Below, piece by piece: positions 5,484 through 63,548 of a stretch of DNA of 64,000 bases; within the stretch, counting starts at the first letter, position 1; every line of letters starts with the position of its first letter. The translations under genes and the position numbers were made by a program. The DNA lies in the NCBI GenBank assembly GCA_025267735.1, contig CM046294.1, positions 31,465,222 to 31,529,221 on the forward strand. The letters are read 5' to 3'. This DNA is from Mactra quadrangularis (Eukaryota; Mollusca; Bivalvia; Venerida; Mactridae). The notes below the pieces were generated by a model that was not told the origin of the DNA, searched no databases, and saw nothing but the letters and a program-made list of their open reading frames with translations.

Positions 5484-5545
5484 GGGCGGATCCAGGATTT
5501 TTCAAAGGGGGAGGGGGTCCGAACTTTTTCTTGGGGGATCGCCGG
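5484..5545 (+). mobile_element. Truncated MITE end fused to caspase A
   Basis: The motif GGCGGATCCAGGATTTTTC followed by G-rich sequence matches the left end of the complete element at 62518-62783. Here only the first ~60 bp remain, and they run straight into the caspase terminal exon. The stop codon of caspase A lies inside it. Confidence 0.75.
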
Positions 5546-5657
5546 GGAAGAACATCAATTTTTTAGTTAAAGATGTTTTAACGAGACAAGCTTGCATCAC
5601 ATCTCTAGGGCCTTCTCTATTTAGTCGTGTTTTTCCTTTAGCCACTAACTGGGTTAC
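5502..5657 (-). CDS. Caspase A exon 8 (p10 C-terminus)
   Basis: The acceptor TTTTTTACAG leads into an exon encoding VTQLVAKG..., REGPRDVMQACLVKTSLTKKL and FFPG, the typical end of the caspase small subunit (substrate-loop region and last beta strand). After FFPG, about 12 residues rich in Pro, Ser and Arg up to the TGA at 5504-5502 come from the adjoining MITE terminus. Copy B instead ends after a short VIASTE. The family usually stops a few residues after this FFP-type motif, so the tail is probably tolerated. Confidence 0.85.
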   Translation of the reverse strand, partial: VTQLVAKGKTRLNREGPRDVMQACLVKTSLTKKLMFFPGDPPRKSSDPLPL

Positions 5658-6332: not shown

Positions 6333-6442
6333 TAAAGTTAATAATCCAGAAATATCTTCTCTACAAGCAAACTTTTGAAATATATAAACAACAGCTTGTA
6401 GAAACCATGAACCATCATGTTCATTTCTTATTGATATATAAC
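6333..6442 (-). CDS. Caspase A exon 7 (p10 core)
   Basis: This exon encodes YISIRNEHDGSWFLQ and 21 further residues. The SxRN...GSWF motif forms the S1/S3 pocket of caspases, and the Arg of RN binds the substrate P1 Asp side. The acceptor TGATTTCAG ends at 6443 and the donor GTAAGT begins at 6332. It enters in phase 1 and leaves in phase 0, matching exons 6 and 8. Its copy B counterpart would lie just past the window end. Confidence 0.9.
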
Positions 6443-7267: not shown

Positions 7268-7459
7268 CAGGATGAGTAGCACACGCTACAAGTATGTCAA
7301 CTTTAGTAGGGGTTGTAGTGTTTTCTTTGGGCGCATCCATTTTATCATCACCATTGAATTTACCATCAGTAGTGGTACGAATATGAGTCTCTTGTAATAA
7401 ATGTGTTATATTCTGTACATTAGTATCAATCATATCTCTACCTGGTCTGTCTGCTGTTT
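7268..7459 (-). CDS. Caspase A exon 6 (intersubunit linker and p10 start)
   Basis: The acceptor ATTATAG ends at 7460. The exon finishes the split codon after QACQG and continues through ETADRPGRD..., then a Thr/Asp-rich linker, to VDILVACATHPG, the first beta strand of p10. Candidate self-cleavage aspartates sit in TTTDG and DKMDA within the linker, as expected for processing into p20 and p10 (inference). The donor is GTGAGT at 7267. Confidence 0.9.
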
Positions 7460-7876
7460 CTATAATATAAATAAGAAATAACTTTTAAAAAATATTTGGC
7501 ACTAAATAGGGTTCATTTTGTTTGCAGTATAGACACTTAATGTTCAGTCGTACCACCAAAAGCGTACGTCAGCGAATGTAATATCAATTGGCAAAGTGAG
7601 TCACCCATAATAGGCAGAGTAAATAGTGCCTTATATTTTATCCATTTCTCTGTACCCAAAGAGAATTTCATTAAACAAACAGGTACGATAGAGCAAGTTG
7701 TTGTATTGGTTGAAATATATGTCAAAAGTAAGCTAGAAAATTTATCAGTCGAACATCTAGGATGTTCCATTATACAGTACCCTCAAACATTCCCTGGAAA
7801 AATCTCAATTTTAGAATAATTGTGAGGCCTAAAGCTTTAAAAGTATACTCTGGGATCAAAATTGTCCCCACATCAA

Positions 7877-8580
7877 AATCCTACTACCAGTACTAACCTC
7901 TCTGACAGGCTTATATAAAGAACAATAAAGGTTTATCAAAAACTTCCTTCTACCAGTACTAACCTTTCTGACAAGCTTGTATAAAGAACAATTAAGGGTT
8001 ATCAAGCATCCTACTACCAGTACTAACCTCTTTGACAGGCTTGTATAAAGAACAATTTAGGGTTATCAAACATCCTACTTACAGTACTAACCTCTCTGAC
8101 AAGCTTGTATAAAGAACAATTAAGGGTTATCAAGCATCCTACTTACAGTACTAACCTCTCTGACAGGCTTGTATGAAGAACAATTAAGGTTTATCAAAAG
8201 CCTTACTACCAGTACTAACCTCTCTGACAGGCTTGTATAAAGAACAATTAAGGGTTATCAAACATCCTACTACCAGTACTAATCTCTTTGACAGGCTTGT
8301 ATAAAGAACAATTTAGGTTTATCAAAAGCCTTACTACCAGTACTAACCTCTCTGACAGGCTTGTATAAAGAACAATTAAGGTTTTTCAAAAGCCTTACTA
8401 CCAGTACTAACCTCTCTGACAGGCTTATATAAAGAACAATTAAGGGTTATCAAACATCCTACTACCAGAACTAGCTTCTCTGACAGGCTTGTATAAAGAA
8501 CAATTAAGGGTTATCAAACATCCTACTACCAGTACTAACCTCCCTGACAGGCTTGTATAAAGAATAATTTAGGTTTATCA
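7877..8580 (-). repeat. 64-bp tandem array of the caspase catalytic exon end
   Basis: Eleven units are anchored at 7901, 7967, 8031, 8095, 8159, 8223, 8287, 8351, 8415, 8479 and 8543; the spacing is 64 bp except for the first step (66). The last unit is the real 3' end of exon 5. Read on the minus strand, each unit repeats ~40 nt of exon (FFIQACQ motif) plus 24 nt of intron, including the splice donor GTTAGTACTG. Several units have a TAA in the exon frame (CCTTAATTG) while others stay open. The array lies downstream of exon 5 in intron 5. Confidence 0.95.
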
Positions 8581-8759
8581 CTTAGTGCTGGACATTTTGT
8601 ACCATCAAAATAATGTGTAACATTCTCTAGTGATATAGTTTGTCCATCAACACCATATATACCAGTGTTTGTACCATGACTACATATAATACATATAAAA
8701 CATTCAGATTGTCTGTGGTCAGAATGTTTAGATTCTTTCTCCAGTTCATCTTTCATCTG
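8540..8759 (-). CDS. Caspase A exon 5 (catalytic His and Cys)
   Basis: The exon encodes the second half of p20: ECFICIICSHGTNTGIYG carries the catalytic His, and KPKLFFIQACQG the catalytic Cys. The pentapeptide with Q rather than R before G, and the preceding GTKCPAL, are as in caspase-8/10. The acceptor is TTTTTACAG|CAG, a tandem NAGNAG site that could add or drop one Gln. The donor is the weak-looking GTTAGT at 8539. It leaves in phase 1, matching exon 6. The last 40 nt are the founder of the 64-bp array. Confidence 0.93.
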
Positions 8760-10342: not shown

Positions 10343-10549
10343 CCCTGCAGTAAGATCTCTCTTGATTATGACAACAAAATATAATTGTGTAAACAATTCT
10401 TTCAAGTCACCAACGTCTTTCTCTGTGCCATTTCTAGCACTTAAAAAACATCTCTTAACACCTTTCTCATCTTCCTCTAATGGTCCATAAAAATAATGGT
10501 TTGATATTATAAAACATCGACCACGACATCTTTTCTTCATGGAATATAC
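10343..10549 (-). CDS. Caspase A exon 4 (p20 N-terminal half)
   Basis: 69 codons. VYSMKKRCRGRCFIISNHYF is the first p20 beta strand, followed by a short insert, then RNGTEKDVGDLKELFTQL, whose Arg belongs to the S1 pocket, then KRDLTAG. The acceptor is TATTGCAG ending at 10550 and the donor GTTTGT at 10342, both phase 0. The RNGT form again recalls caspase-8. Confidence 0.92.
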
Positions 10550-10945: not shown

Positions 10946-11040
10946 ATTTCTACTTAGCCGGTTCTGTGTGACAAGTTCTGATCTATCATTACATGGTTTC
11001 ACAACAATTGGTTCAGACATGATAGCTTCATTAGGCCAAT
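10946..11040 (-). CDS. Caspase A exon 3 (CARD-p20 linker)
   Basis: A short exon of 31 codons plus two bases. The only open frame reads WPNEAIMSEPIVVKPCN... and ends RLSRN, joining in phase 0 to VYSMKK of exon 4. The acceptor TATTACAG ends at 11041 and the donor GTATGT begins at 10945. Linker sequence is not conserved in caspases, so the support is the open frame, both splice sites and the matching 3' phase. The 5' phase requires another, unseen exon upstream. Confidence 0.75.
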
Positions 11041-16538: not shown

Positions 16539-19500
16539 TCAGAAACCGTAAGGGTATGACACGTATCCATCAGCAAGAACCCTTTTATCAAAAACGAGTC
16601 TATAATCCTTTCGCTCACAAGTAGTTACTATTTTAGCATTGTCTGTGTCTCTTGTGATTTTATGAGCATCAACGACGGACACACTTGCTTCATATTTATT
16701 GGTGACAAACTCTTTCAGGACATTGAAGTTTACGTTTAACATATTTTTGCAGTCGAGAGTAATACCTCTTATCTTGCAAATGGTAAGATCACCCTCCTTG
16801 TTTGAGCGTTGTAGTTTATAACCATAATTCTTTGGCCCTCCTGTGACAAAAGTATGTATACTATTGTTAGAAATCTCGTCCGTCAGGTCACCTAAGTAGT
16901 CACCCAAACATAGCTTTTTTGCCCTTTTTTAGTGCAAAAGACTACAGAATCAGTATCTGCGTAAAAAGCCCGTGGTCCGAGTTCTTTCAAATACGAATAC
17001 AGTTTCAAACGAGCCTGAGCTGTTGTATAGGCAGCGATGACTACGTTTATCTTTGAGCTAGTCTCTACAAAACCCTCTTTGTACTTCCAACGTAGCTCCA
17101 CTGCGTCTTCAGATACAAAATTGACAGCAGTGACTTCTTCACGGTCGGATGTCAGTTTGTCAAAGTATATTTTTGGGTCGTCCACAATGTCTACTTGATG
17201 CATATTAGGTCTTTGACCGAATTTGCCCCAGAACGAATTTAGCATAAGTTTGGCCAGTGCTCTCAATTCGGGATTCTTTTTTATTTTATCGTATTATAGA
17301 CGGATACCTTCTTTTTGTTCGTATAGGTCGATGTAATGAAACCTATCTGTCTCTGTTTTGCACCACTCAGGCCATCCACTGGCCTCTTGCTTGATTTTCA
17401 AGAAAGTGTTTACATATTCCGTAAACAGCCCTCCTGTCATTGTTTCTGGATTAAACTGAGAAATGCTATCAAAATGCCAAATTTCGTATAGTTTGATAAG
17501 TTGATACCCCATATTTACAGCTTCTTTGACTTCATCAATGACCCAGGTACCTACAAACGCTCGGTCCTTATTTTCCTGTTGGCAAGGTGTTTGTTGTTGC
17601 AGTTCGGCGCATGTCTTGCAGGTATGAAATAGGAGTCTGCCATTGGTTCTACTAGGCAGATGCCTCTTTGTACAGTGTATATGCCTCTGTGCGTCCTCCA
17701 TAAAAAGCGTCACGAGGTTCAAGAGATGTCACCATGTCTAGCCTCTCAATAAAACGTCTCATATCATCGTTTTCTATACATTCTTGGTCAAAGTCAGACT
17801 CCCAAATAGATTGATATTTGTAACCCTCTTTTTCGAGGTATCTTTGTTTCTCCAACGTTTTGTCATACAGATCTCCAATAGTCATCTGTTTCACTGGATT
17901 AACAGTATTTCGAGAATATTTCTTATTTTTCATTATACCATGTCAGGAATGTTTTCCTATCATCCGGTTTTATGCCGTCAGGTGTATAGTATTGCATGTC
18001 GGGTAAGCCATTCAAAACAACAGATTGATTTTCTTTTTTGTTGAATAAATGGGGAAAATAACCTTTCTTCATTTCTTCAAAACCAAACATGTTTGGCAGT
18101 TTAGCAAGAGCCATTGGTAGAAAGTTAATGGAATCAATCATTTTGATTTTGCATGACTCCACTGTTAGACTCATAACTTTAGCTCCATTAGGTACAATAT
18201 TTGGAAGGATTCCGTGGTTGTATAGGTACTGTAAAATAGGATACGAATCATACCCTTGGAAGTTGTGACAAAGAACAGTCGACTGGTAATTTTCCTCGGA
18301 AAACAACCATTGGCAAAACTGATCAAGTGTATCGTCACCTTTAAATATATGCTCCCGTTGACCACAGTTTTCACAGGGTTCTACGGAGTCCATACATACT
18401 GTGCACACCTTTTGAGCGACACAGAGATTAGGCTTGTGTTCGTAAGATCCACATGATGATTTTAGACAATGCACGCATTTTCCAAAAACATCTGGTGTAT
18501 ATCCAGTGTCACATTGAACTAAATTGTCTTGTCTACACTCGAAGTCAAAAAAAGTAAATGACTTTGCATTTTCTATGTCTTGAACAATTCCTCTTCAATT
18601 GAATTCACCTCCTCTTGTTCATCGTATTCCTCAGGGACCATATAACATTAATGTCCTTCGGGGAAGAAGTCTTGACAGTTGCGACAATACATTTCCCCAC
18701 AAACATGTTTTTTCTTATGCATACGTCTATTTATAGTTTTGTCACAGTCACGGCATCGGTAGATAGACTTGCAAGTGGAATTTCCCTTGGCAGTAGTGAC
18801 TTTGTGCAAATCAAAACATTCTTGACCTCGGAAGAACCGATGACATTCGTCACAATTCAATCAGTCTACCGTCTCTACCTCTTCATGAACCTAACGACAT
18901 GCATGACATACATTGTTACACTTGTGTTTCTCCTTGTGGTCATATCCAGCATTACATTTTGTACAATAATAGTTTCTCGATAGAAATGCTGGCATGCTCG
19001 TAATGGCGTCATAATGCTTATTATGAAAGTAGAGATATATTTTCTTTTCCGCTTCTGGACCACTGTAAATAATGCCATTGAAATGCTCATGTGAGATGAC
19101 GTAGATCTGATAATCTGGTATAATGACTTGGAACTTCTTGATCTCTTCGACACCACATTTTCCTAAGAGCACGCCAGCTTCTTGACGAAGAGCTTTTGCC
19201 ATTTTTTCTTGTTCTGATTTACCCGTTCGAATGCTATTCCATTTTTCGTGTTTTTCTATCCTGGCCTTTGCAGTGACAATAGCCCTGGCACAACATAGGT
19301 CGTCGTCATTTTGAATCCGAAGGATACATTTCTTGTTTTGCAGAAATTTCTCAGTGCTGATGAAATGACAGCGTTTTCGACTCCCTCCCTCCGGCATATC
19401 AACCAGGGAAATGTCAAATAGCAATGATTCGTCAATGACGAAATCCTCATGAGATTGTAAGACCCGTTCAATTTCAGCCATGAAGCGATCCACAGTAAGT

Positions 19501-20096
19501 TCAGGTATCGGCATGAATCTCAGCACGATTGGGTAATCCAGCGATGGACTTTGCACGGTTAGTCGAATTAGGTCTTCTGTTTTAGAGCCCTTAGTAAGAT
19601 CAGCAATGATGGACGTGAACAGTCTTTTAAGAGTAGACAGTACATCATTTGACACTTCCATGTCTCTGAATGTCACATGATAGCTCGTAGATGTGGTTCT
19701 GAACTTTGGTATGCGTTGTTCCTTAAGTTTTCTGATGGAATAAAACTGTCTTAGGTCATCGTCCTTTCGCAACATTTTAACAGGCTTGGTATCGTTATCT
19801 TCCTCGTTTCCCATGGCATTGCTTGCTCTACGTTTTTGTCCTCCAACTTGGTGAACTCGTTCTTTATGCCTATTCAGCGTATACTGACGGCTGAATACCA
19901 GTCCACACTCGTCACAGTGAACACTGTTTGCAGCAAAATGTTTCTTCTTATGTTGATCAAGATTATCTTTCCGTGTGAACCATTTCTCACATATGTCACA
20001 GGGGTGTTTCGTCCAGTGATTTTCAGTGCGTTGGTGTTGCTTAAGCTGGCTGACTTTAGAAAAACTAGCCCCACATTCTTCGCAGTTGTAAGTCAT
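16539..20096 (-). pseudogene. Maverick/Polinton protein-primed DNA polymerase B, decayed
   Basis: Reading right to left: three C2H2 fingers (CEEC, CDIC, CDEC starts, 20084-19850); the family N-terminal region; further Cys-rich fingers (18860-18650); Exo I FFDFE (~18555); Exo II in HNFQGYD (~18265); then palm motifs NSFWGKFGQR (~17235) and YADTDSVVF (~16940), ending after GDYLGDLTDE. The Exo III region is missing between ~17940 and 17880, and motif A (the first palm Asp) is missing at ~17670. Frameshifts occur near 18597, 17670 and 16910, and in-frame stops include those at 18891 and 17294. It cannot encode an active polymerase. A possible 3' splice site just upstream (20112) could mean an additional 5' exon. 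Confidence 0.92.
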
Positions 20097-20219
20097 GTCT
20101 TCTTTTTTACCTGTAATGAAATGATAATAACAAATTAATTGGCTAGGTGGCATGAATAAAGTTTTCATTTGAACACAGTATAAGTCAAACCTTTACAAAG
20201 AATCAGACGAAAGAAAACA

Positions 20220-20386
20220 AAGTCATGCGAGACACAGCCAGGCGAGACTACAAATAACCAGATGAGACTTCAAAATAAACCATAATAAACCAGGCGAGAC
20301 TACAAAAGTCAGGCGAGACTACAAAAAAGTCAGGCGAGACTACAAAAACCCAGGCGAGACTACAAAAACCCAGGCGAGACAAAAGT
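20220..20386. repeat. Short tandem repeat between divergent Maverick genes
   Basis: Seven or more copies of CAGGCGAGACTACAAAAA-like units of about 17-21 bp lie in the ~630-bp gap between the PolB start and the ATPase start, which are transcribed divergently. The rest of the gap (20387-20729) is AT-rich with nothing recognised. Confidence 0.8.
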
Positions 20387-20729
20387 GATACATACCTTTT
20401 TGTATTATTATTATCCAAGTGTTTTATAACTACAGTAGCAGCCGATATGCACAACATCAAATCTGTAAATGAATAGAAAAAATGATTCAACCTTTAAATA
20501 CTAAAAATGGCGCATGCGCGGTAAATTAACACATACGTTTGAACAATTCATGTGGTATTTTGATTGGCTGATTAGGCTGTTTAATAATTGGACAATGATA
20601 TGTTAAAGATGTAATTTCATTGGCTGAAAATGTCGTGATTTGATTGGTTGCCAAGATTTAAAAACATATGTAAATAGAGCAAACATAATGTGCTAGCTTC
20701 ATTTGTAAGTTAGCCACCAGAGAGTAAAC

Positions 20730-22696
20730 ATGTATTCTACACGGTGCCCAGATTGTTACAAGGAATTTAGTAGAAAGGATGCGATGTTGCGACATTTTAA
20801 ACAAAAACATAATGTATCTTTCAACACAACAGTGTCAGAAGGAGCGCTGCCACCACCACCACCACCACCACCACAAGGAGCGCTGCCACCACCACCACCA
20901 CCACCACAAGGAGAGCTGCCACCACCACCACCACAAGGAGCGCTGCCACCACCACCACCACAACAACAACAAGGAGCGCTGCCACCACCACCACAAAGAG
21001 CGTTTCCACCACTACCATCTTCACAAAGAGCGCTTCCAGAACCGGTACCGTCACAGGAAAACGTGGTGTTTCAACATCCATTCACTATGATTATATCGGG
21101 TCCTACAGGTATATTTTGTTAAAACTTTTGTAGCATTATTTTAACAAATTAAATTGCAAATTAAGGAACCATCTTTTTAGATGTTTATATGGACCATTTT
21201 TTAGACTATGACGGGTTTTTCATCATCAATTTGTTTGACTTCCAAAATACATTTTTGAATGATATTTTTTCCACTTTTTAAACAAGATATCAAGACCAGT
21301 CGGATAACAAATTTATAGAAATTCGCGCCCTTTTTATCACAATTTTAAATGTTTTAAGTCATTTCATTGTAAAAGAAACTTTATATAAAATACTGAATTG
21401 TTCTCATTAGCCTGTGGGAAGACAACAATATTGAAAGAGTTATTACAGAATCACAAATCAATCACTTAACCTGGCATACAAAGAATTGTATGGCTATATA
21501 AAAGGTGGCAACCTATGTACACCGTCATAAAGCGAACTGTGGAACCAAATGTGGAGTTTATTCAAGGCATCCCTGCAGATTTAGATGACGATGACTACTT
21601 TGACCCACGAATCAACAATTTACTGATATTGGACGATTTGTACTCAGAAGCTGGCAAAGATAAACGTATCACCGATTTGTTTACGGAGGGGTCCCATCAC
21701 AGATCTCTCTCTGTGATTTCAATTAATCAAAACATGTTTGGAAGTAAGGATCCAACTTAACGACGCAATTGTCATTATTTAGCATTGTTTAATAACCCAG
21801 TTGACAAGCAATCTGTCATGACACTAGCTAGACAAATGTATCCTGGACAGAGTGACATACTTTAAAAACAATTTGTCAAAGCTACGAAGTATCCATATGG
21901 ACATTTATTAGTGGATTTAAAACCATTCACACCCGAAGATCAGAGGTTAAAATGTATCAGACAAAATAAGTTAGATTCCATTGGTCACGTGACCCTTCAA
22001 GAACCTATAAAAGAAGGTGTTTTAACAGACATCAGTCATTCTACAGTTGGATTACAGACGGAGCACATCGAGGATAAGTCAGAAAATAATATAGGAAATA
22101 ATCTAGAAAATAATACAGAAAATATTCCGGAAGAAATAATGGAAAATAAAGGACACGCTTGCGACGATTGTGGTCAGTTATTTGACACTATTCACGACGT
22201 GCAAAGACATGTCAAAAACGACTGGTGCCCCGAACACATGCGGCAAAAGAAACGAAAACATGAGGAAGTGAGCGATAGCGAGCCAGATGATTCTGTAGAA
22301 GATAACGAGGCCTATGTACAATTATGGAAAAGAGCCCGTACAAGTAATGACCAAAAGTTCGAAAAAATATATAACACATCTATTGAAAATGGTGAAGACA
22401 GTGACACTGCACAGGACATGGCAGAAGAACGCATACAACCCTATAATGAAAAGGAGTTTATCGGCAAATATCAAACATTAATTGACAATTACATTCTGCC
22501 ACTTAGAAAAAATAGATTACATACACAAATTATGGCTCAGATTGATAAGCTGATCTCAAAAGGTCAGACAAGTACTTCAGCCGTGATAAAGGTCATAAGA
22601 AAACATAAGAACTCATTTCAGGATATATTTGATATGGAATTTTCTGATGATGAAAATAGTAAAGAGGAAGAAGAAAGTGACTCTGAAAATGTATAA
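20730..22696 (+). pseudogene. Maverick packaging ATPase with zinc-finger/polyproline leader
   Basis: The FtsK/HerA-type (A32-like) genome-packaging ATPase of Mavericks. The chosen ATG at 20730 gives a C2H2 finger (CPDC...H....H), then five GALPPPPPQ-type blocks (residues ~38-100), then FQHPFTMIISGPT. A 302-bp GT-AG intron (21109-21410) splits the P-loop; splicing restores GPTACGKT. Walker B LLILDDL, SHHRSLSVISINQN and the conserved DLKPFTPE follow, then an acidic C-terminal region with another C..C..H..C finger. The frame stays intact to 22696 apart from three in-frame TAA codons at 21467, 21758 and 21863. No frameshift is seen. Confidence 0.9.
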
Positions 22697-22752
22697 ATAA
22701 AAACAGTTTATATCAAGATGTTCATTTGTGTTGTGGACTTTAAGCAGTCAAC

Positions 22753-23969
22753 ATGGCTCCGTGGGAAGATTATTTAAAGAAAATATACTACGATGCTAAA
22801 CATCCCGGTGCATTTGCCGGGCCACAAAAACTATATAATGTGGTGAAACGAGAGGGAAAATTTAACATTGGAATGCATAGAATCAGGCAATTTCTACATA
22901 ATCAAGAATCCTACAGTCTACACAAACCAGTAAGACGACGATTTCAGCGAAATCATATAATAAGTGCCGGTAAAGACGATTTGTGGATGGCTGATTTATT
23001 TGACATGAAAAAGTTTGCCGACTGGAACCAGGGTTATAAATACATCTTGTTGGTAATAGACACGTTCTCTAAATATGTGTGGTAACAACCATTGAAATAT
23101 AAAACTGGCGAAGAGGTAGCCCGTGCTTTCAAGAAAATTTTCAACACTACAAACAGATCGCCTGCAAAGCTGATTACTGATAAAGGTTGGTATCATATTA
23201 TATTTATCAATTGTGTACACAAGCATTTGATTAATAATATTGTCGTTGAAATTTTATGTTTGCATTCTTATATTTTACTATAGTCTTTTATTCTAAACTT
23301 TCAGGACAAGAATTTCGCGCCAAAACAGTACAAGACGTTATGAGAAAGAAAGACATCCGCTACTTCCCTACCCAGAATGAAACAAAGGCGTCAACATCAG
23401 AAAGAGCCATTTTAACAATTAAAACCCGACTCAATCGGTACTTATCTTACAAAGACACAAACACATTTCCACCAGTGTTACAAGATATCACTGACAGTTA
23501 CAACCATACTTTTCACAGGACCATTGGAATGAGACCCGCCGATGTCAAAGAAACCAATCAGGAGGAAGTGCGACTCGCTACTTATTTCGCGCAAAACCAA
23601 AAGTACAACAAAGTGGAAAATAAACTCAAACCTTTCAAGTTTAAAATAGGGGACTATGTAAGGATCAGTCAGTTGAAATCAACATCCACTCGAGCGTACG
23701 ATCAAACATATACTGATGAAGTATTTAAAGTACACAAGCGATATCATAGAGGTACAATACCGATATACAGACTCCGCGATTTACAAGACGAAAATATTCA
23801 GGGTACTGTCTACAACAGTGAACTACAGAAAATAGACTATGATCCGAACCAGGAATTTAAAATTGACAAAGTGTTAAAAAGTCGTGGTAAAGACCCAACA
23901 TACAATATTTTGTACAGTGGAAACATTTTCCGCGAAAATTTAATTCTTGTGTCAAAGCTAGTGATTTAA
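22753..23969 (+). pseudogene. Maverick retroviral-type integrase
   Basis: The DDE integrase that inserts Maverick DNA. The catalytic triad candidates are D81 (WMADLF), D143 (LITDKG) and E176 (STSER). A chromo/SH3-like C-terminal region follows (KFKIGDYVRI... RYHRGTIPIYRLRD). A 119-bp GT-AG intron (23186-23304) falls just after the second catalytic Asp, in phase 1, and joins TDKG to QEF. A single nonsense codon, TAA at 23083-23085 (codon 111), interrupts an otherwise full-length frame ending at 23969. The ATPase is 57 bp upstream on the same strand. Confidence 0.92.
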
Positions 23970-35524: not shown

Positions 35525-35761
35525 ATCAGTAACAATATGATTCAAACCTTCAGGTAGGATAATTGGGTCAGGAGGTGGCACTCTTGTATTTTCTCTGAGA
35601 CCATTAAGATGTTGACCAGTGTATCCATCTCTTAATAAATCAGCTACACTTTCGTTACCACTATCCATTAGACATTCATAGAACTCATTGTAAGCATTGG
35701 GTCCTCTACGAGGAATTGTATCAAGAATTCTTCTATTTTTACCATTTGGTGTCCTCTCAGC
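35525..35761 (-). CDS. Caspase A exon 2 (CARD C-terminal half)
   Basis: 79 codons in phase 0/0. AERTPNGKNRRILDTIPRRG, then PNAYNEFYECLMDSGNESVADLL, is the second half of a death-fold CARD, as in caspase-9 and -2 (helices 4-6). A Pro-rich linker follows (RVPPPDPIILP). The acceptor is TCATTTCAG ending at 35762; the donor GTAGGA at 35524 follows ...IVTD. This exon makes the prodomain a CARD rather than tandem death-effector domains. Confidence 0.88.
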
Positions 35762-36272
35762 CTGAAATGAGGTGCAGGGTAGTAATGCAGCACATTTAAG
35801 TCACCTAACACCAAGTCATATCATTTGTGATTACTTAAAAATGCACAACAGAACAGAAAGGAAGTTTAAAGCAAACTTAAAAAAGGACTACTTTACTGAC
35901 TAAAATGAAACTAGAGCTATCATAGAAGTGATGAATACTTGCAACATGTCGAAGGGAAGGACATTAGACCCCATATATAGGCCATGCCATTTAAAGTATG
36001 AACACAGTTATGCACATGACACACCTTCTCGTCACGGTTAACATTAAACAAATTTGTGCCAAGTAATTCTAAAAACCATCTGTTGATGGTGGAGATATTG
36101 CCCAGACAAACAAAATTTTAACAATATTTGACCTTTGACCTCATTTATTGACCACACCCTTTGAGGATTTTGCACACAACACACAGTCTCGTGACAATTA
36201 ACATTTGTGCCAAGTAATACGTACAGTGCCATCCATAATAACCTTAACATTTCGTATATGTGTGATTTGATA

Positions 36273-37340: not shown

Positions 37341-37475
37341 CTCAATTTCCTGTTTCATAGATTCTGTTATTATATGCCTACTAAATAAAAGATCAACAAG
37401 ATCTTGAGGATTTGCTATATTACGAATAATAGCAGTTCTTTTTGTCCGTAATACTTCTCTATGGATCTCATCCAT
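37341..37475 (-). CDS. Caspase A exon 1 (start and CARD N-terminal half)
   Basis: 45 codons from the ATG at 37475-37473: MDEIHREVLRTKR..., then PQDLVDLLFSRHIITESMK, helices 1-3 of a CARD. The start is chosen because the ATG is one base inside an exon whose acceptor, TTATTCCAG, ends at 37477, so an untranslated first exon lies upstream. The donor GTATGT begins at 37340; the junction to exon 2 is phase 0. Confidence 0.87.
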
Positions 37476-41173: not shown

Positions 41174-44100
41174 GGGATTCAATGTTTCTCAACCGATTTT
41201 CGTCGATTTCATGCCAACCGATTTTTGATGAAAGTAGTAATACACAAATGAATATAATTAAAATTAAATTTGCTTATTCTATCTTAGAATTGACTTTAAT
41301 GTAAATGTTAACGTATTGTTTGTAAAATATAACTGTTTTCTAAATACCAAATGCTCAAAATCAACACATGTAGACAAAAAGTGTAGGAACTATTTGACAT
41401 AAAAACCACGCCTACCTAGTTAGAAATGTTTATACCCCGGTTTCAAAGAAAATAATTTGCGGTAATTATTGAAAGAAACTGGAAATAAAAGTTACTGTTC
41501 TTGATAAGATTGTCGAAAATCATATTTAAGAATATATTATTACAGGAACACATAAATGTATACACATTCACGCATACAATGTCATAAGCTCTGTTAACAA
41601 GTCGACACTAATAACATAATGGAGTTAACTACGATAAAAAGCGGTTTAAGTATATTTATCAGTACCATTAGTTGGGAGAGAAACATAAGCAAATAAAGGA
41701 TTTCTAGCTGGGGGAGCTATAATGAACAAGAGACTATAGTCTTACCTATACGTAACTAATATTTTTCTATTTTTAGAGATGGATGCCATCTGACTTTTGA
41801 CGATTTGTAGAAGTTAGATACCAACCGATTTTGGTCGATTTGTAGAGTCCTGATTCCAGCCATTTTTATGACTATTTGTGGAGTGTGGATGCCAACCGAT
41901 TTTCGTCCATTTGTAAAATTTGCATGCCAAGTGGTGTTTGACGATTTTAATCAGTTTGAGTCACAACTGATGATGGTCCATTGTAGATTGTTAATGCCAA
42001 CCGATTTGAAGATAGTAGATTTATAGTATAGATGGCAACCGATTTTCGTTGATTTCTAGTGTCTAGATAAAAACTGGATAAAAACTTTGGATCCAACCGA
42101 TTATCGTCTCTTTGTAGCGTTTAGATGACAACCGATTTTCGATTATTTGTTCAGTATATCCCAACCAATTTTTGTAGTTTTGTTTAGCTGGGAACCCAAC
42201 CGAGTTTGTTTTTTTTGAAATTGCATCCCAACCGATTTTGGTCGATTTGTGAACTCAGATAGCAACCGATTTTTGTCGTTTTGTGGAGTCAGAATGCCAA
42301 CCGATTTTGGTAGTTTTGTTTGGCTTGGATCCAAACCGGTTTGATCGATTTGGAGCTGCTAGTTGCCAACTGATTTTCGTCTATTTGTTCAGTCTGAATG
42401 CCAACCGATTTTCGTCGTTTTTTAGGGGTAAGGTGCCAACCGATTTTCGTCTATTTGTTCAGTCTGAATGCCAACCGATTTTCGTGTATTTGTTTGGTCT
42501 AAATGCCAACCGATTTTGGTAGATTAAAGAAGTCAAGATCCTAATCAATTGTGTCTATTTGATCAGTGTTAATGCTAACCGAATTTGGTAGATTTTTGAA
42601 GTCAAGATGCCAACCGATTTTCATCGCTTTGTAGCTGCTAGATGCCAGCCGATTTTCGTCTGTTTGTTCAGTCTGAATGCAAACCGATTTTCGTCGTTTT
42701 TTAGGGGTAAGATGCCAACCGATTTTCGTCTATTTGTTCCGTCTAAATGCCAACCGATTTTCGTCTATTTGTTCAGTCTGAATGCCAACCGATTTTCGTC
42801 GTTTTTTAGGGGTAAGATGCCAACCGATTTTCGTCTATTTGTTCCGTCAAAATGTCAACCGATTTTCGTCATTTTTTAGGGGTAAGATGCCAACCGATTT
42901 TTGTCCATTTGTTCCGTCTAAATGCCAACCGTTTTTCGTCGTTTTGTTTAGCTTGGATCCCAACCGATTCTCGTCTATATGTAGCTGCTAGATGCCAACC
43001 GATTTTCGTCTATTTGTTCAGTCTGAATGCCAACCGATTTTCGTCGTTTTTTAGCGTTAAGATGCCAACCGATTTTCGTCTATTTGTACCGTCTAAATGC
43101 CAACCGATTTTCGTCTATTTGTTTCGTCTAAATGCCAACCGTTTTTCGTCGTTTTGTTTAGCTTGGATCCCAACCGATTCTCGTCTATATGTAGCTGCTA
43201 GATGCCAACCGATTTTCATCTATTTGTTCAGTCTGAATGCCAACCGATTTTCGTCGTTTTTTAGCGGTAAGATGCCAACCGATTTTCGTCTATTTGTTCC
43301 GTCTAAATGCCAACCGATTTTCGTCTATTTGTTCAGTCTGAATGCCAACCGTTTTTCGTCTATTTGTTCGGTCTAAATGCCAACCGATTTTGGTAGATTA
43401 AATTTGGTTTATTAAAACTACCAAAATCGGTTGGCATTCAGACTCCACAAAACGACAAAAATTGGTTGGCATCTAGACATTATACGTAGTAATCAACCAA
43501 AATAGGTTGACATAATGACTCTCCAAATGAGGGCATTTAGACTGAACAAATAGACAAAAATCGGTTGGCATCTAGCCGCATTAAATAGACCAAAATCGTT
43601 TGGGATTCAAGCTCAACAAAGTAACTAAACTCAGTTGATATTAGGATGGAACAAATAGAATAAAATCGGTTGGCATCAAACCCCTACAAAACGACGAAAA
43701 TCGGTTGGCATTTAGACGGTACAAATAGACGAAAATCGGTTGGCATTTAAACGGAAGAAATAGACGAAAATCGGTTGGCATTTAGACGGAACAAATAGAC
43801 GAAAATCGGTTGGCATCTAGCAGCTACATATAGACGAGAATCGGTTGGGATCCAAGCTAAACAAAACGACGAAAAACGGTTGGCATTTAGACGGAACAAA
43901 TAGACGAAAATCGGTTGGCATCTAACCGCTAAAAAACGACAAAAATCGGTTGGCATTCACACTGAACAAATAGACGAAAATCGGTTGGCATCTAGCAGCT
44001 ACATACAGACGAGAATCGGTTGGGATCCATGCTAAACAAAGCGACGAAAATCGGTTGGCATTTAGACTAAACAAATAAAAGATAACAGTTGTCATCTAAC

Positions 44101-47100
44101 CCCTAAAAAACGACAAAAACGGTTGGCATTTAGACGGAACAAATAGACGAAAATCGGTTGGCATTTAGACCGAACAAATAGACGAAAATCGGTTGGCATT
44201 CAGACTGAACAAATAGACGAAAATCGATTTGCATCTTTCCGCTAAAAAACGACGAAAATCGGTTGGCATTCAGACTGAACAAATAGACGAAAATCGGTTG
44301 GCATCTAGCAGCTACAAAGCGATAAAAATCGGTTGGCATCTTGACTTCAAAAATCTACCAAATTCGGTTATCATTAACACTGTTCAAATAGACACAATTG
44401 ATTAGGATCTTGACTTCTTTAATTTACCAAAATCGGTTGGCATTTAGACGAAACAAATAGACGAAAATCGGTTGGCATTCAGACTGAACAAATTGACGAA
44501 AATCGGTTGGCATCTAGCAGCTACATATAGACGAGAATCGGTTGGGATCCAAGCTAAACAAAACGAAGAAAAACGGTTGGCATTTAGACGAAACAAATAT
44601 ACGAAAATCGGTTGGCATCTAACCGCTAAAAAAACGACAAAAATCGGTTGGCATTCACACTGAACAAATAGACGAAAATCGGTTGGCATCTTACCCCTAA
44701 AAAACGACGAAAATCGGTTGTTATTCAGATGAATAAATAGACGAAAATCGGTTGGCATTTAGACGGAACAAATAGACGAAAATCGGTTGGCATCTAACCG
44801 CTAAAAAACGACGAAAATCGGTTGGCATTCAGACTGAACAAATTGACGAAAATCGGTTGGCATCTAGCAGCTACATATAGACGAGACTCGGTTGGGATCC
44901 AAGCTAACAAAACGACGAAAATCGGTTGGCATTTAGACGGACCAAATAGACGAAAATCAGTTGGCATCTTACCGCTAGAAAACGACAAAAATCGATTGGC
45001 ATTCACACTGAACAAATAGACGAAAATCGGTTGTCATCTAGCAGCTACATATAGACGAGAATCGGTTGGGATCCAAGCTAAACAAAACGACGAAAATCGG
45101 TTGGCATTTAGACTAAACAAATAAAAGACAACGGTTGTCACCTAACCCCTACAAAACGACGAAAAACGGTTGACATTTAGACGGAACAAATAGACGAAAA
45201 TCGGTTGGCATCTTACCGCTAAAAAACGACGAAAATCGATTGGCATTCAGACTGAACAAGTAGACGAAAATCGGTTGGAATTTAGACGGAACAAATAGAC
45301 GAAAATCGGTTGCCATCTTACCCTTAAAAAACGACGAAAATCGGTTGGCATTCAGACTGAACAAATAGACGAAAATCGGTTGGCATCTAGCAGATACAAA
45401 GCGATGAAAATCGGTTGGCATCATGACTTCAAAAATCTACCAAATTCGGTTAGCATTAACACTGATCAAATAGACACCTTGGTTAGGATCTTGACTTCTT
45501 TAATCTACCAAAATCGGTTAGCATTTAGACGGAACAAATAGACGAAAATCGGTTGGCATTCAGACTGAACAAATAAACAAAAAACGGTTGGCATCTTCCC
45601 GCTACATTCGTTTGGCATTTATACCCCTACAAAACGACGAAAATTGATTGGCATTTAGACTGAACAAATAGACGAAAATCGGTTGGGATGCAAACTAAAC
45701 AAAACGACCAAAATCGGTTTGCACTCAGACTCCACATAACGACCAAAAACGGTTGGCATCTAGACACTCGTTATCAACCAAAATCGGTTGGCATTTAGGT
45801 TCTGCAACGGTTGGCATCTAGACTTCACAAAACGACCAAAAGCAGTTGGGATGCAAGCTTAACAAAACAACCAAAACCGGCTGGGATCAAAGCTAAACAA
45901 AACGATGAAAATCTGTGGCCATTTAGACTGGACAAATAAACGAATATCAGTTGGATCTAGCCGTAGCAAATCGACCAAAATCGGCTGGAATGCAAGCTAA
46001 ACAAAACGACCAAAATCGGTTTGCATTTAGACACTAGTAATAAACCAAAATTGATTTGCATCTGTACTTTACAAATAGACATAAATCGGTTGGCTTCTAG
46101 CCGCTTCAAATCGACCAAAATCGGTTGGGATGCAAGCTTAACTAAACGACCAAAATTGGTTGGCATTCCGAATCAACAAAATGACTAAAATCGGTCGGCA
46201 TTTAGACACAAGTATTCAACCCAAATTGATTTGTACCTAGACTCTACAAATAGACGAAAATCGGTTGGCATTTAGACTGAACAAATAGACCAAAATCGGT
46301 TTGGATCTAAGCTAAACAAAACGACCAAAATTGGTTTGGATCTAAACACTAGTAATTGCCCAAAATCGGTTGGCATTTAGACTATACAAATCTTCCATTC
46401 TCGGCATTAGTGGCTCTACAAATCGACGAAAATCGGTTGGCATCCAGATCGCGCAAATTTCTTGGAATCGGTGAACGTCCTTATTCTCGAAATATCAAAA
46501 AATTCGGTTATCAAGTACACATGTATTTTCTACAATTGGAACGGTTAACATCCACACTCAACAAATTATTCTTTTATCGGTTAACATCCAGAATCTACAA
46601 ATTTTCTAAAAATTGTTTGCCAAATAAACCCTACAATCGACCAAAATCGATTGGCATCTTGACTCTACTTTGCATCCAGAATCTACAAATGGACCAAAAT
46701 TAGTTGGAAACCATCTCATCAATACTTAAAAATCCGTTGGCATCCAAGTTATACAAAACGTCATTTCGTTGGTTCATTTTTACTTAATGAACTGAATAAA
46801 ATTATGCACAAATTAATGTCTAAGGCATTGTAATTATACTCATATCGGTGAAGAAACAAAACTACTTTATTTATGAAATATGTATTATTCAAAAATCTTA
46901 AAAACTACAAAATTGCATGTTGTTATAGTCTAGCGAAGTTCCAATTAATGCTTATTGTCCCTTATACATTAAAATCTGGTCATATTTTCATAGCATGAAA
47001 TTAATTATATAAGTGAACGAGTGTTTTCTAAATGAAATCTTGTTAGACTTGCAGGCCCGTAGGAACCGGGGAGGTTAGGGGGCTTAGGCCTGTACCACTC

Positions 47101-60788: not shown

Positions 60789-62517
60789 GAAGTTCACTTA
60801 TCTATTGTTCATTGAACTAGAGGACATTCTCTGTAAGCAGAATTGTTGGAAAGATTGCTCTAACCTACAATATTAATCATTGACAGAATACACTTGAGAC
60901 CAATGGTGCTTTTCACAAAAATTCTTATGAAAAAAATCTTTGTAAGTCAAAAGTAAGAAACATTGATAATATGCTCATTTTTTGGCTTATCAATGTTAAA
61001 TATTATAAAATTGTGTAGAATATTGTATACCTTTTAAATATCATATCATAGCTATGCTCATTATCCATCTGACTGTTATAAATATAAAATTGACTTACAA
61101 TAACTTTTTTATAAGAATTTTTGTGAATTTGAGCACAGGTCTACAACACTTTTGATGAAGTGACTTTCCTCTACATGCACTAGAAAGGTATATGGAAAAA
61201 TTGTAAGCCTTCAGGAAGAGTAAGTGAGTTATTGTACAGGTTTATCTGAAAATCCTTTTGAGTCCACTTCCTTTTTCTTGCTATAAGAATAAGATACTTG
61301 CCCAAGGAAACAATGAGGTGGGTTTCAGAAGCATTCAAAACCAACACTAATGGAAGATTGGCCAGTCTAATGTCACAGCTTGGTCATACTTGTCTATGCT
61401 AGTTCTGAGCAAACTCCGGCTGAAAAATTATATCACTGTTAACTTGACTGACAAAACTTAAATTACAAAACTTGACAATAACGACAATGAAAGAACAACT
61501 CCAGAATTTGTAACTTATTTCACATGATTTATTTTTAGAAACAATAATGTAGATTATTAACAACAATTGGTTATGGCTGACAATACTATGGATACAATTA
61601 TAGTACATTTTTACTTAGATTCAGATTACAGCTGAAAAAGAAGGGGCAATCATGCTTGCATGCTTTACGGTAATATGTGTTATTCGATGAACAAATAAGA
61701 TGAAAACATAAATTTTAAAATTTAATTCACAAATTTACGGATTTCCATAATCCTGTGTGCGAACAGGACTTCAGATTTATTTTATTGGACACCATTTCCA
61801 AAGATATTTCAGCCCTATTAAACTTAAGTAAAATATGATCTTATATTTTAATTGTCAATAGACATAATTTGGAACTCAAATTTGTGGAGTTTTCCGTCCG
61901 TGTGATGTAGGATACAAACAAAATTTGTTACATATTATTGATGAAACTTTCGAAATATGGATTAAATCCTATTGTTCTTTGTACACGTGTTTTCATTGTA
62001 ACAGTAAAAGTTTGTTTGTACCTACATGGAAAAACCCAAATATTTGAATTCCGGATATAGTCTATTATGTCATCTTAGAGGACATATGACGTCATATTGG
62101 AGAAAAAATGATACCATCTAACAATTTGTATAAATAATACACAGAATTAAGCATGCAAGAAACAGAATATTCGTCCACTTTGATGAAATATCGATTTTAT
62201 TTCAACTTGTGAACTCACTCGGTGAAATAAAAATGGATCCTACACCAAGGTGGACAAATATTCTCTATTTGTTCTACAGCAGAATAGCAGGGTACTCATA
62301 CTAGCCTTTTTTGCACCTCTAAAAATAGAAATACTGACTTGTCCCCAGATATAAATATACGAGAAGGGCATAGGAATTCTACACCCCTATTTGACTTGCC
62401 ATTTCAAAAATTTAACAGATGTTAGTTATACATGTAAACCCATTGCTTATAAAACAGAGTTCTGTTTAAGGGTCCATAAAGGTCAGTCTCCATAAACATA
62501 GTTGTTAGTTAGGGATT

Positions 62518-62783
62518 CAGAAGGGGGGATCCAGGATTTTTCAAGGGGGGGTCTGAAATTTTTCTAGGGGGATCCAAACTTTCGAACCACAATCACATTA
62601 TACACATTTTGCAGGATAATGCAACATTTTAATAATAAAAACAATGTAACCATTAAATCTATGTTAAGCACCAAGAAAAATTGCTTAATGCTACTCGAAA
62701 ATGACTAAAGAATACATTTGTGGACAGGTACATTTTTGAAATTCTAGGGAGTGACCCCCCCCCCCCGCTAGATCCGCCTATAG
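62518..62783. mobile_element. MITE with GGATCC-type ends
   Basis: The left end GGGGGGATCCAGGATTTTTC and right end GACCCCCCCCCCCCGCTAGATCCGCC are inverted, G/C-rich and non-coding inside. Its left end matches the fragment fused to caspase A at 5484. Confidence 0.7.
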
Positions 62784-63286: not shown

Positions 63287-63424
63287 TCATTCTGTGCTAG
63301 CAATTACGCCAGGGAAGAACATGAATTTCTTAGTTAATGATGATTCAAATAGACTAGCTTGCATCACATCTCTAGGGCCTACTCTATTTAGTTGTGTTCT
63401 TCCTTTAGCCACTAACTGGTTTAC
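63287..63424 (-). CDS. Caspase B terminal exon (paralogue)
   Basis: The acceptor TTTTTACAG ends at 63425, then VNQLVAKG, GPRDVMQASLFESSLTKKF and MFFPGVIASTE, with TGA at 63289-63287. It is clearly homologous to caspase A exon 8 but differs at about a third of positions, with no stop or frameshift. The rest of this gene should continue on the minus strand beyond 64000. The ending GVIASTE is presumably the original C-terminus of the family. Confidence 0.85.
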   Translation of the reverse strand, partial: VNQLVAKGRTQLNRVGPRDVMQASLFESSLTKKFMFFPGVIASTE

Positions 63425-63548
63425 CTGTAAAAACAAATAACATGTTTGGTTTATGTTTGTGGGCTTAGTGCAAAACGGTCATAAATCAATTTAAAAGAGA
63501 GTGAGTTATGATAGTTTTGCCCTAAGCCTGCAATTTGTATTATATCCT

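Follow-up and report, generated by a model that had tools for sequence, protein, structure and literature searches.

A minisatellite across the edge of the catalytic exon in a bivalve CARD-caspase gene

In a CARD-caspase gene of the bivalve Mactra quadrangularis, here called caspase A, the 3' edge of the exon that encodes the catalytic loop is tandemly repeated together with its splice donor and the start of the following intron. The array is probably a neutral exon-edge minisatellite of the 'mirage' type, causing at most leaky mis-splicing. This kind of minisatellite is known from amphioxus; it is new in this gene and, as far as the literature was searched, in molluscs. An earlier, sequence-only reading of this DNA had offered three options for the array: a splice regulator, a producer of truncated caspase, or a minisatellite that had captured an exon edge. 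The last of these is the best supported, because the copies are noncoding, two of the ten extra donors are damaged, no constraint on the donors was detected, the copies go back to a single diverged founder, both edges of the array carry TGAT, and there are precedents in amphioxus. Nothing was found in favor of a selected splice regulator.

Results

The analysis covered a window of 64,000 nucleotides, the whole stretch of DNA under study. Caspase A lies on its minus strand, where eight exons were located using tblastn with the closest homologue, caspase 9 of Mactra antiquata (P0001) (Table 1). The best protein matches are from bivalves (Mactra, Mercenaria, Ruditapes, Mya, and Dreissena), and exons 3-7, when joined, encode 274 residues that are 76% identical to P0001 over the full length. 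Exon 5 matches the Pfam family Peptidase_C14 at 1.2e-19 and aligns to the M. antiquata protein in tblastn at 79% over 75 aa. Four exons were scanned for Pfam families, and exons 4 and 5 exceeded the cut-off for Peptidase_C14. The CARD profile scored 29.5 bits in exon 2, above the cut-off of 23.9, and 22.4 bits in exon 1, just below it. The presence of a CARD together with a Peptidase_C14 domain bearing SHG and QACxG identifies caspase A as a caspase with a CARD.

The junction between exons 5 and 6 (QACQG-E) aligns without a gap to six homologues (P0001-P0006), with E in five of them and D in P0005. Splicing is therefore expected to use the native donor at 8539. In the case of P0007, a partial gene model from Mya arenaria, 21 residues including the catalytic cysteine are missing at the end of exon 5, unlike in P0005. 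This gap perhaps results from the use of another donor or from faulty gene prediction. At the other end of the gene, the C-terminal tail of caspase A (DPPRKSSDPLPL, 5502-5560) comes from sequence that recurs at 62477-62550.

Table 1. Positions in the window of the caspase A exons, the array and its elements, and the caspase B exon.
Feature	Position	Strand	Basis
Exon 1, first half of CARD, start ATG	37341..37475 (donor edge approximate)	-	tblastn; CARD profile
Exon 2, second half of CARD	35548..35764 (edges approximate)	-	tblastn; CARD profile
Exon 3	10946..11040	-	gene model, tblastn; alone without Pfam match
Exon 4	10343..10549	-	gene model, tblastn, Pfam Peptidase_C14
Exon 5, 220 nt, phase 0 to phase 1, ends ...FFIQACQG/G; source of the repeat	8540..8759	-	gene model
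Exon 6, linker and start of p10, acceptor ATTATAG just upstream	7268..7459	-	gene model, tblastn; alone without Pfam match
Exon 7, p10	6333..6442	-	gene model, tblastn
Exon 8, coding part, end of p10	5502..5657	-	tblastn
Native 64-nt unit, donor GTTAGT at 8539	8516..8579	-	unit tables; homologue alignment
Ten extra tandem copies, entirely within intron 5	7872..8515	-	TRF; unit tables
TGAT, proximal array edge, in exon 5	8577..8580	-	unit table
TGAT, distal array edge	7872-7875	-	unit table
Extra copy 1, damaged donor GCTAGT	8470..8475	-	U1 duplex -0.6 kcal/mol
Extra copy 4, destroyed donor ATTAGT	8278..8283	-	U1 duplex -2.3 kcal/mol
Copy 6 (donor 8155), second donor-like GTAAGT, nine bases downstream of unit donor	8141..8146	-	
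Copy 7 (donor 8091), second donor-like GTAAGT, nine bases downstream of unit donor	8077-8082	-	
Caspase B (tandem paralogue), last exon; rest expected beyond the window	63290..63436	-	tblastn

TRF detected a tandem array at 7872-8580 with a period of 64, 11.1 copies, 89% matches and a score of 1100. In ten dinucleotide shuffles of the window the maximum scores were 41-55 (periods of at least 10), and the tandem amplification of the exon 5 end and intron start, as it had been read from the letters, is thus real. The proposed make-up of the unit, 40 nt of exon followed by 24 nt of intron, is borne out by the unit tables: in transcript (minus) orientation, each unit corresponds to positions -40 to -1 of exon 5 and +1 to +24 of intron 5. 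The array consists of one native copy (donor at 8539) and ten extra copies that lie 3' of it in the transcript direction, with donors at 8475, 8411, 8347, 8283, 8219, 8155, 8091, 8027, 7963, and 7897. The 64-bp regularity that had been claimed applies to nine of the ten unit-to-unit steps; the last step is 66 nt.

Approximately 0.67 kb of the 1.08-kb intron 5 is occupied by the array. The native unit matches 11 places in the window (blastn-short, E 0.01), every one of which is inside the array. As in mirage minisatellites, the unit spans an exon-intron boundary, here that of exon 5 and intron 5. The native boundary stands at the edge of the array, and we infer its use in mRNA from its agreement with the six homologous proteins. 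The TGAT present at both array edges is a possible microhomology for the first duplication, four bases being weak evidence.

The native donor reads GAG/GTTAGT. GTTAGT is intact in eight of the ten extra copies, a pattern that resembles mirage minisatellites, in which many units, not all, keep their splice signals. The description of each unit as a decoy 5' splice site is accordingly correct for these eight and wrong for the copies at 8475 (GCTAGT) and 8283 (ATTAGT), in which the predicted U1 duplex weakens from about -8 kcal/mol to -0.6 and -2.3 kcal/mol, respectively. Predicted pairing with U1 is nearly the same for the eight intact extra donors as for the native donor, with seven at -8.2 and one at -8.1 kcal/mol. 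RNA folding was also used to assess donor accessibility. The native donor was more open than seven of the ten extra donors in one setting; the ordering was unstable over four settings, and accessibility was dropped as an explanation.

The effect of using a unit donor was assessed by simulating ten extensions with uniform 64-nt steps. Past the native GGA-G the next bases are GGT TAG, in frame, and all ten extensions stop there, right after the native exon end. This agrees with the proposal that isoforms from downstream donors would stop directly after the catalytic loop. The distance from the stop to the donor used ranges from 59 to 635 nt in the simulation, and the true 66-nt step makes the last of these 637 nt. 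Three further exon junctions lie downstream of the GGT-TAG stop. An mRNA with a stop codon ahead of downstream exon junctions is an expected target of nonsense-mediated decay, and unit-donor mRNAs would therefore be expected to decay; a stable truncated protein is no more likely an outcome for them than decay.

Each unit had also been taken to join its donor to a snippet coding for the catalytic cysteine, which needs correction for the extra copies, none of which encodes an intact active-site loop. The glycine of QACQG is replaced in all ten, by Arg in nine and by Lys in one, and a TAA in the exon frame occurs within the exon-like 40 nt of eight. Together, the in-frame stops and the lost active-site glycine codon indicate that the extra copies are noncoding and rule them out as coding cassettes.

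Two states are common to all ten extra copies and absent from the exon, namely A to G at -26 and G to A at -4. It is the -4 change that turns the glycine codon into one for Arg or Lys. All six homologues spanning the site (P0001-P0006) retain this residue, which means that the exon state is ancestral and that the direction of copying was from the exon to the array. Judged by these shared states, the array is the amplification of a single diverged copy. The native copy differs from the extra copies by a mean of 7.0 mismatches, and the extra copies differ among themselves by a mean of 7.1 (range 1 to 10, every pair being different). Since the native copy is equally distant and only two differences are fixed, it is by those two sites that exon and array are set apart. 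For the mirage feature of an edge copy that escapes homogenization, the two fixed differences speak in favor and the equal mean distances against.

Constraint was examined on a neighbor-joining tree of all 11 units, on which parsimony required 31 steps, or 28 after neighboring columns of the same pattern were collapsed. The donor region (-3 to +6) received 3 of the 28 events on 9 of the 64 sites (p = 0.79), with no constraint visible in a test of low power; its share without collapsing was 4 of the 31 steps. The exon-like part received 17 of the 28 events on 40 of the 64 sites (p = 0.85), and here too no constraint was visible and the power of the test was low. In raw cells, the exon-like part was less variable than the intron-like part (17/400 compared to 25/240, p = 0.003). 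This signal vanishes when changes are counted as tree events, and selection on the exon-like part was dropped as a reading.

The window contains 23 tandem arrays with periods of at least 10, which cover 10,469 bases. When 23 arrays were placed at random, a mean of 1.7 spanned an exon edge by at least 10 nt and the probability of at least one doing so was 0.84, in a model that takes no account of selection and uses 22 edges from an incomplete list of 11 exons, some of the edges being approximate. With 1.7 such arrays expected by chance, no special cause has to be invoked for an array that captured one exon edge. The exon 5 edge is the sole one of the 22 edges to lie inside an array. For caspase A exons 1-4 and 6-8, no further local tandem copies of exon edges were found in the window (E 0.01); the other matches to caspase A exon edges belong to the paralogue or to dispersed repeats, or are among a few matches of 15-16 nt. 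Elsewhere in the window, TRF found two long arrays of 35-bp period at 42093-46382, with a total of about 4 kb, which apparently represent one unit in opposite orientations.

Discussion

Tandem repeats of an exon-intron boundary beside the genuine one have been described in amphioxus as 'mirage' minisatellites. They are reported in the globin genes BflGb6 and BflGb9, in Adh3, and, added by the second report, in troponin C and PGBD5 (PMC3087553, PMC3902484). Splice signals are present in many, not all, of the globin units, the copy number of BflGb6 differs by haplotype (6 and 3 units), and the BflGb6 units are 81-100% alike; normal splicing seems undisturbed (PMC3087553). The caspase A array resembles these cases in having boundary-spanning tandem units next to the genuine boundary, and it repeats the 3' edge of an exon, as in BflGb9. 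It differs in belonging to a bivalve caspase and not to a cephalochordate gene, in its 64-bp unit and ten extra copies, and in a change shared by all of these copies that destroys a residue of the catalytic loop. A literature search of partial coverage found no exon-edge minisatellite for bivalves.

The following course of events would account for the array. A 64-bp stretch over the 3' edge of exon 5 would have been tandemly duplicated, possibly because slippage or repair took place between two copies of TGAT. The unit on the downstream side, being intronic and free of coding constraint, would then have diverged and subsequently given rise to about ten units through ordinary minisatellite turnover (slippage and unequal exchange). 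Splicing would normally take place at the native donor, at 8539; the eight unit donors that are intact would be mostly silent or see little use, and any transcripts from unit donors would stop at GGT-TAG and probably be degraded. Some observations count against a neutral array. The eight unit donors are close to the native one in predicted U1 pairing, the amphioxus authors also allow for cryptic donor use (PMC3087553), and the raw-cell contrast (p = 0.003) could hint at constraint or conversion.

A first alternative is that caspase A is a dying gene copy on its way to becoming a pseudogene, with the array among several changes of a degradative kind. Such decay would be compatible with the minisatellite reading, and we regard it as rather unlikely. 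The 120 bases around the acceptor of the last exon of caspase B are 92.5% identical to caspase A. Compared to Mactra, the 39 residues of exon 8 show 8 A-specific and 0 B-specific amino-acid changes, with dN 0.107 and dS 0.167 (from 9 and 4 changes). A relative rate test over 256 columns, with Mercenaria as outgroup, gave 20 private changes in caspase A compared to 8 in Mactra (chi2 5.1). These differences, and the replacement of the C-terminal tail by repeat-derived sequence, speak for this alternative. However, the exons are open, splice sites are canonical in exons 3-7, and both SHG and QACQG are intact. Departures from the residues shared by all five other full sequences are also unremarkable, with 6 in caspase A, 3 in Mactra, 3 in Mercenaria, 3 in P0003, 7 in Mya, and 16 in Dreissena, and exon 8 is the only part of caspase B that falls in the window for comparison. 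Caspase A belongs to a tandem pair, its C-terminus is altered, and it shows some signs of relaxed evolution. Such relaxation may be the reason why the array persisted.

Alternatively, the donor ladder could function as a splice switch. Unit donors would compete with the native donor and win under some conditions, producing either a stop-containing mRNA that is degraded (unproductive splicing) or a p20-only inhibitor. We consider this improbable, although the intact donors are numerous and pair with U1 like the native one, and every simulated product ends at one and the same codon. A precedent for the use of repeated donors is the minisatellite of human IFI6 (6-16), in which donors of the downstream repeats are reported to be active and to yield different protein isoforms (Turri et al. 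1995, as cited). IFI6 has the same basic arrangement as caspase A, a tandem repeat supplying several donors at one exon end. The outcome is not the same. IFI6 yields different isoforms, whereas 64, the step length in caspase A, is not divisible by three, and each of the ten simulated extensions runs into the immediate stop instead of specifying a distinct protein. In DOK7, splicing is reported to favor the intron-proximal donor of a competing pair. This preference, together with the downstream donor use in IFI6, means that silence of the caspase A unit donors is not assured. Against a switch, the donors display no sign of constraint, two of the ten are damaged, and no homologue ends at the loop among the best 7 of 15 (P0001-P0007), a set in which the best match is 76% and the source species is seemingly absent.

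A more specific form of this proposal is a donor ladder tunable by copy number. At the catalytic exon of this initiator-type caspase, the number of intact donors would determine how large a fraction of the transcripts is shunted to the GGT-TAG stop. This appears highly improbable; if it were true, caspase output would be tuned quantitatively by allele length, from one individual or somatic cell to another.

It is very doubtful that the array is an incipient nursery of introns or exons, in which units would be used as splice acceptors, as micro-exons or for recursive splicing, along the lines of models for intron gain from tandem duplication. Each unit does contain a pyrimidine-rich stretch ending in ATA(C/T)AAG and most contain AG/GT, which is kept in eight of the ten extra copies. 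The pseudo-acceptors have 11-13 pyrimidines of 17, compared to 9-12 in the five real acceptors tested, but a pyrimidine count is a crude score and the several AGs of each unit would compete. Models of intron gain by tandem duplication have been published (Rogers; Zhuo 2007, as cited), with cases from ATP2A1 and fission yeast (PMC4974935), and internal tandem repeats at human exon-intron boundaries have been described (PMC2812944). These systems and the caspase A array have in common tandem units with AG/GT or a position at exon-intron boundaries. They create introns or modify exons, whereas the caspase A copies sit in an old intron, where a new one is unneeded. Instead of a new intron within continuous coding sequence, the array is found in intron 5, and the six site-covering homologues indicate no inserted residues at the junction.

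An assembly artefact, in the sense of a mis-assembled or miscounted repeat, is hardly credible: copy number in arrays can be misjudged, but the extra copies all differ from one another, the gene continues on both sides of the array, and 0.7 kb is short for long reads.

The neutral exon-edge minisatellite that is thus favored suggests that such arrays, described from amphioxus, arise in molluscs too. The array also forms a natural series of near-identical competing donors, two of them with built-in damage, in which a wrong choice leads to an immediate stop. It would make a clean test of how an authentic donor is chosen among its copies and of how such arrays are tolerated.

Other sequences of the window are recorded here as minor observations. 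A search against a phage collection by megablast gave no match. Seven ORFs at 16895-23966, inside intron 2 of caspase A (24 kb), were scanned singly. Two of these match DNA polymerase B of the viral/organellar type (PF03175), one matches C2H2 zinc fingers, and four have no match. By its appearance, this cluster is presumably a Maverick-like mobile element. On the plus strand, an exon of a D-isomer 2-hydroxyacid dehydrogenase (PF02826, 5.6e-47) lies at 1236-1865.
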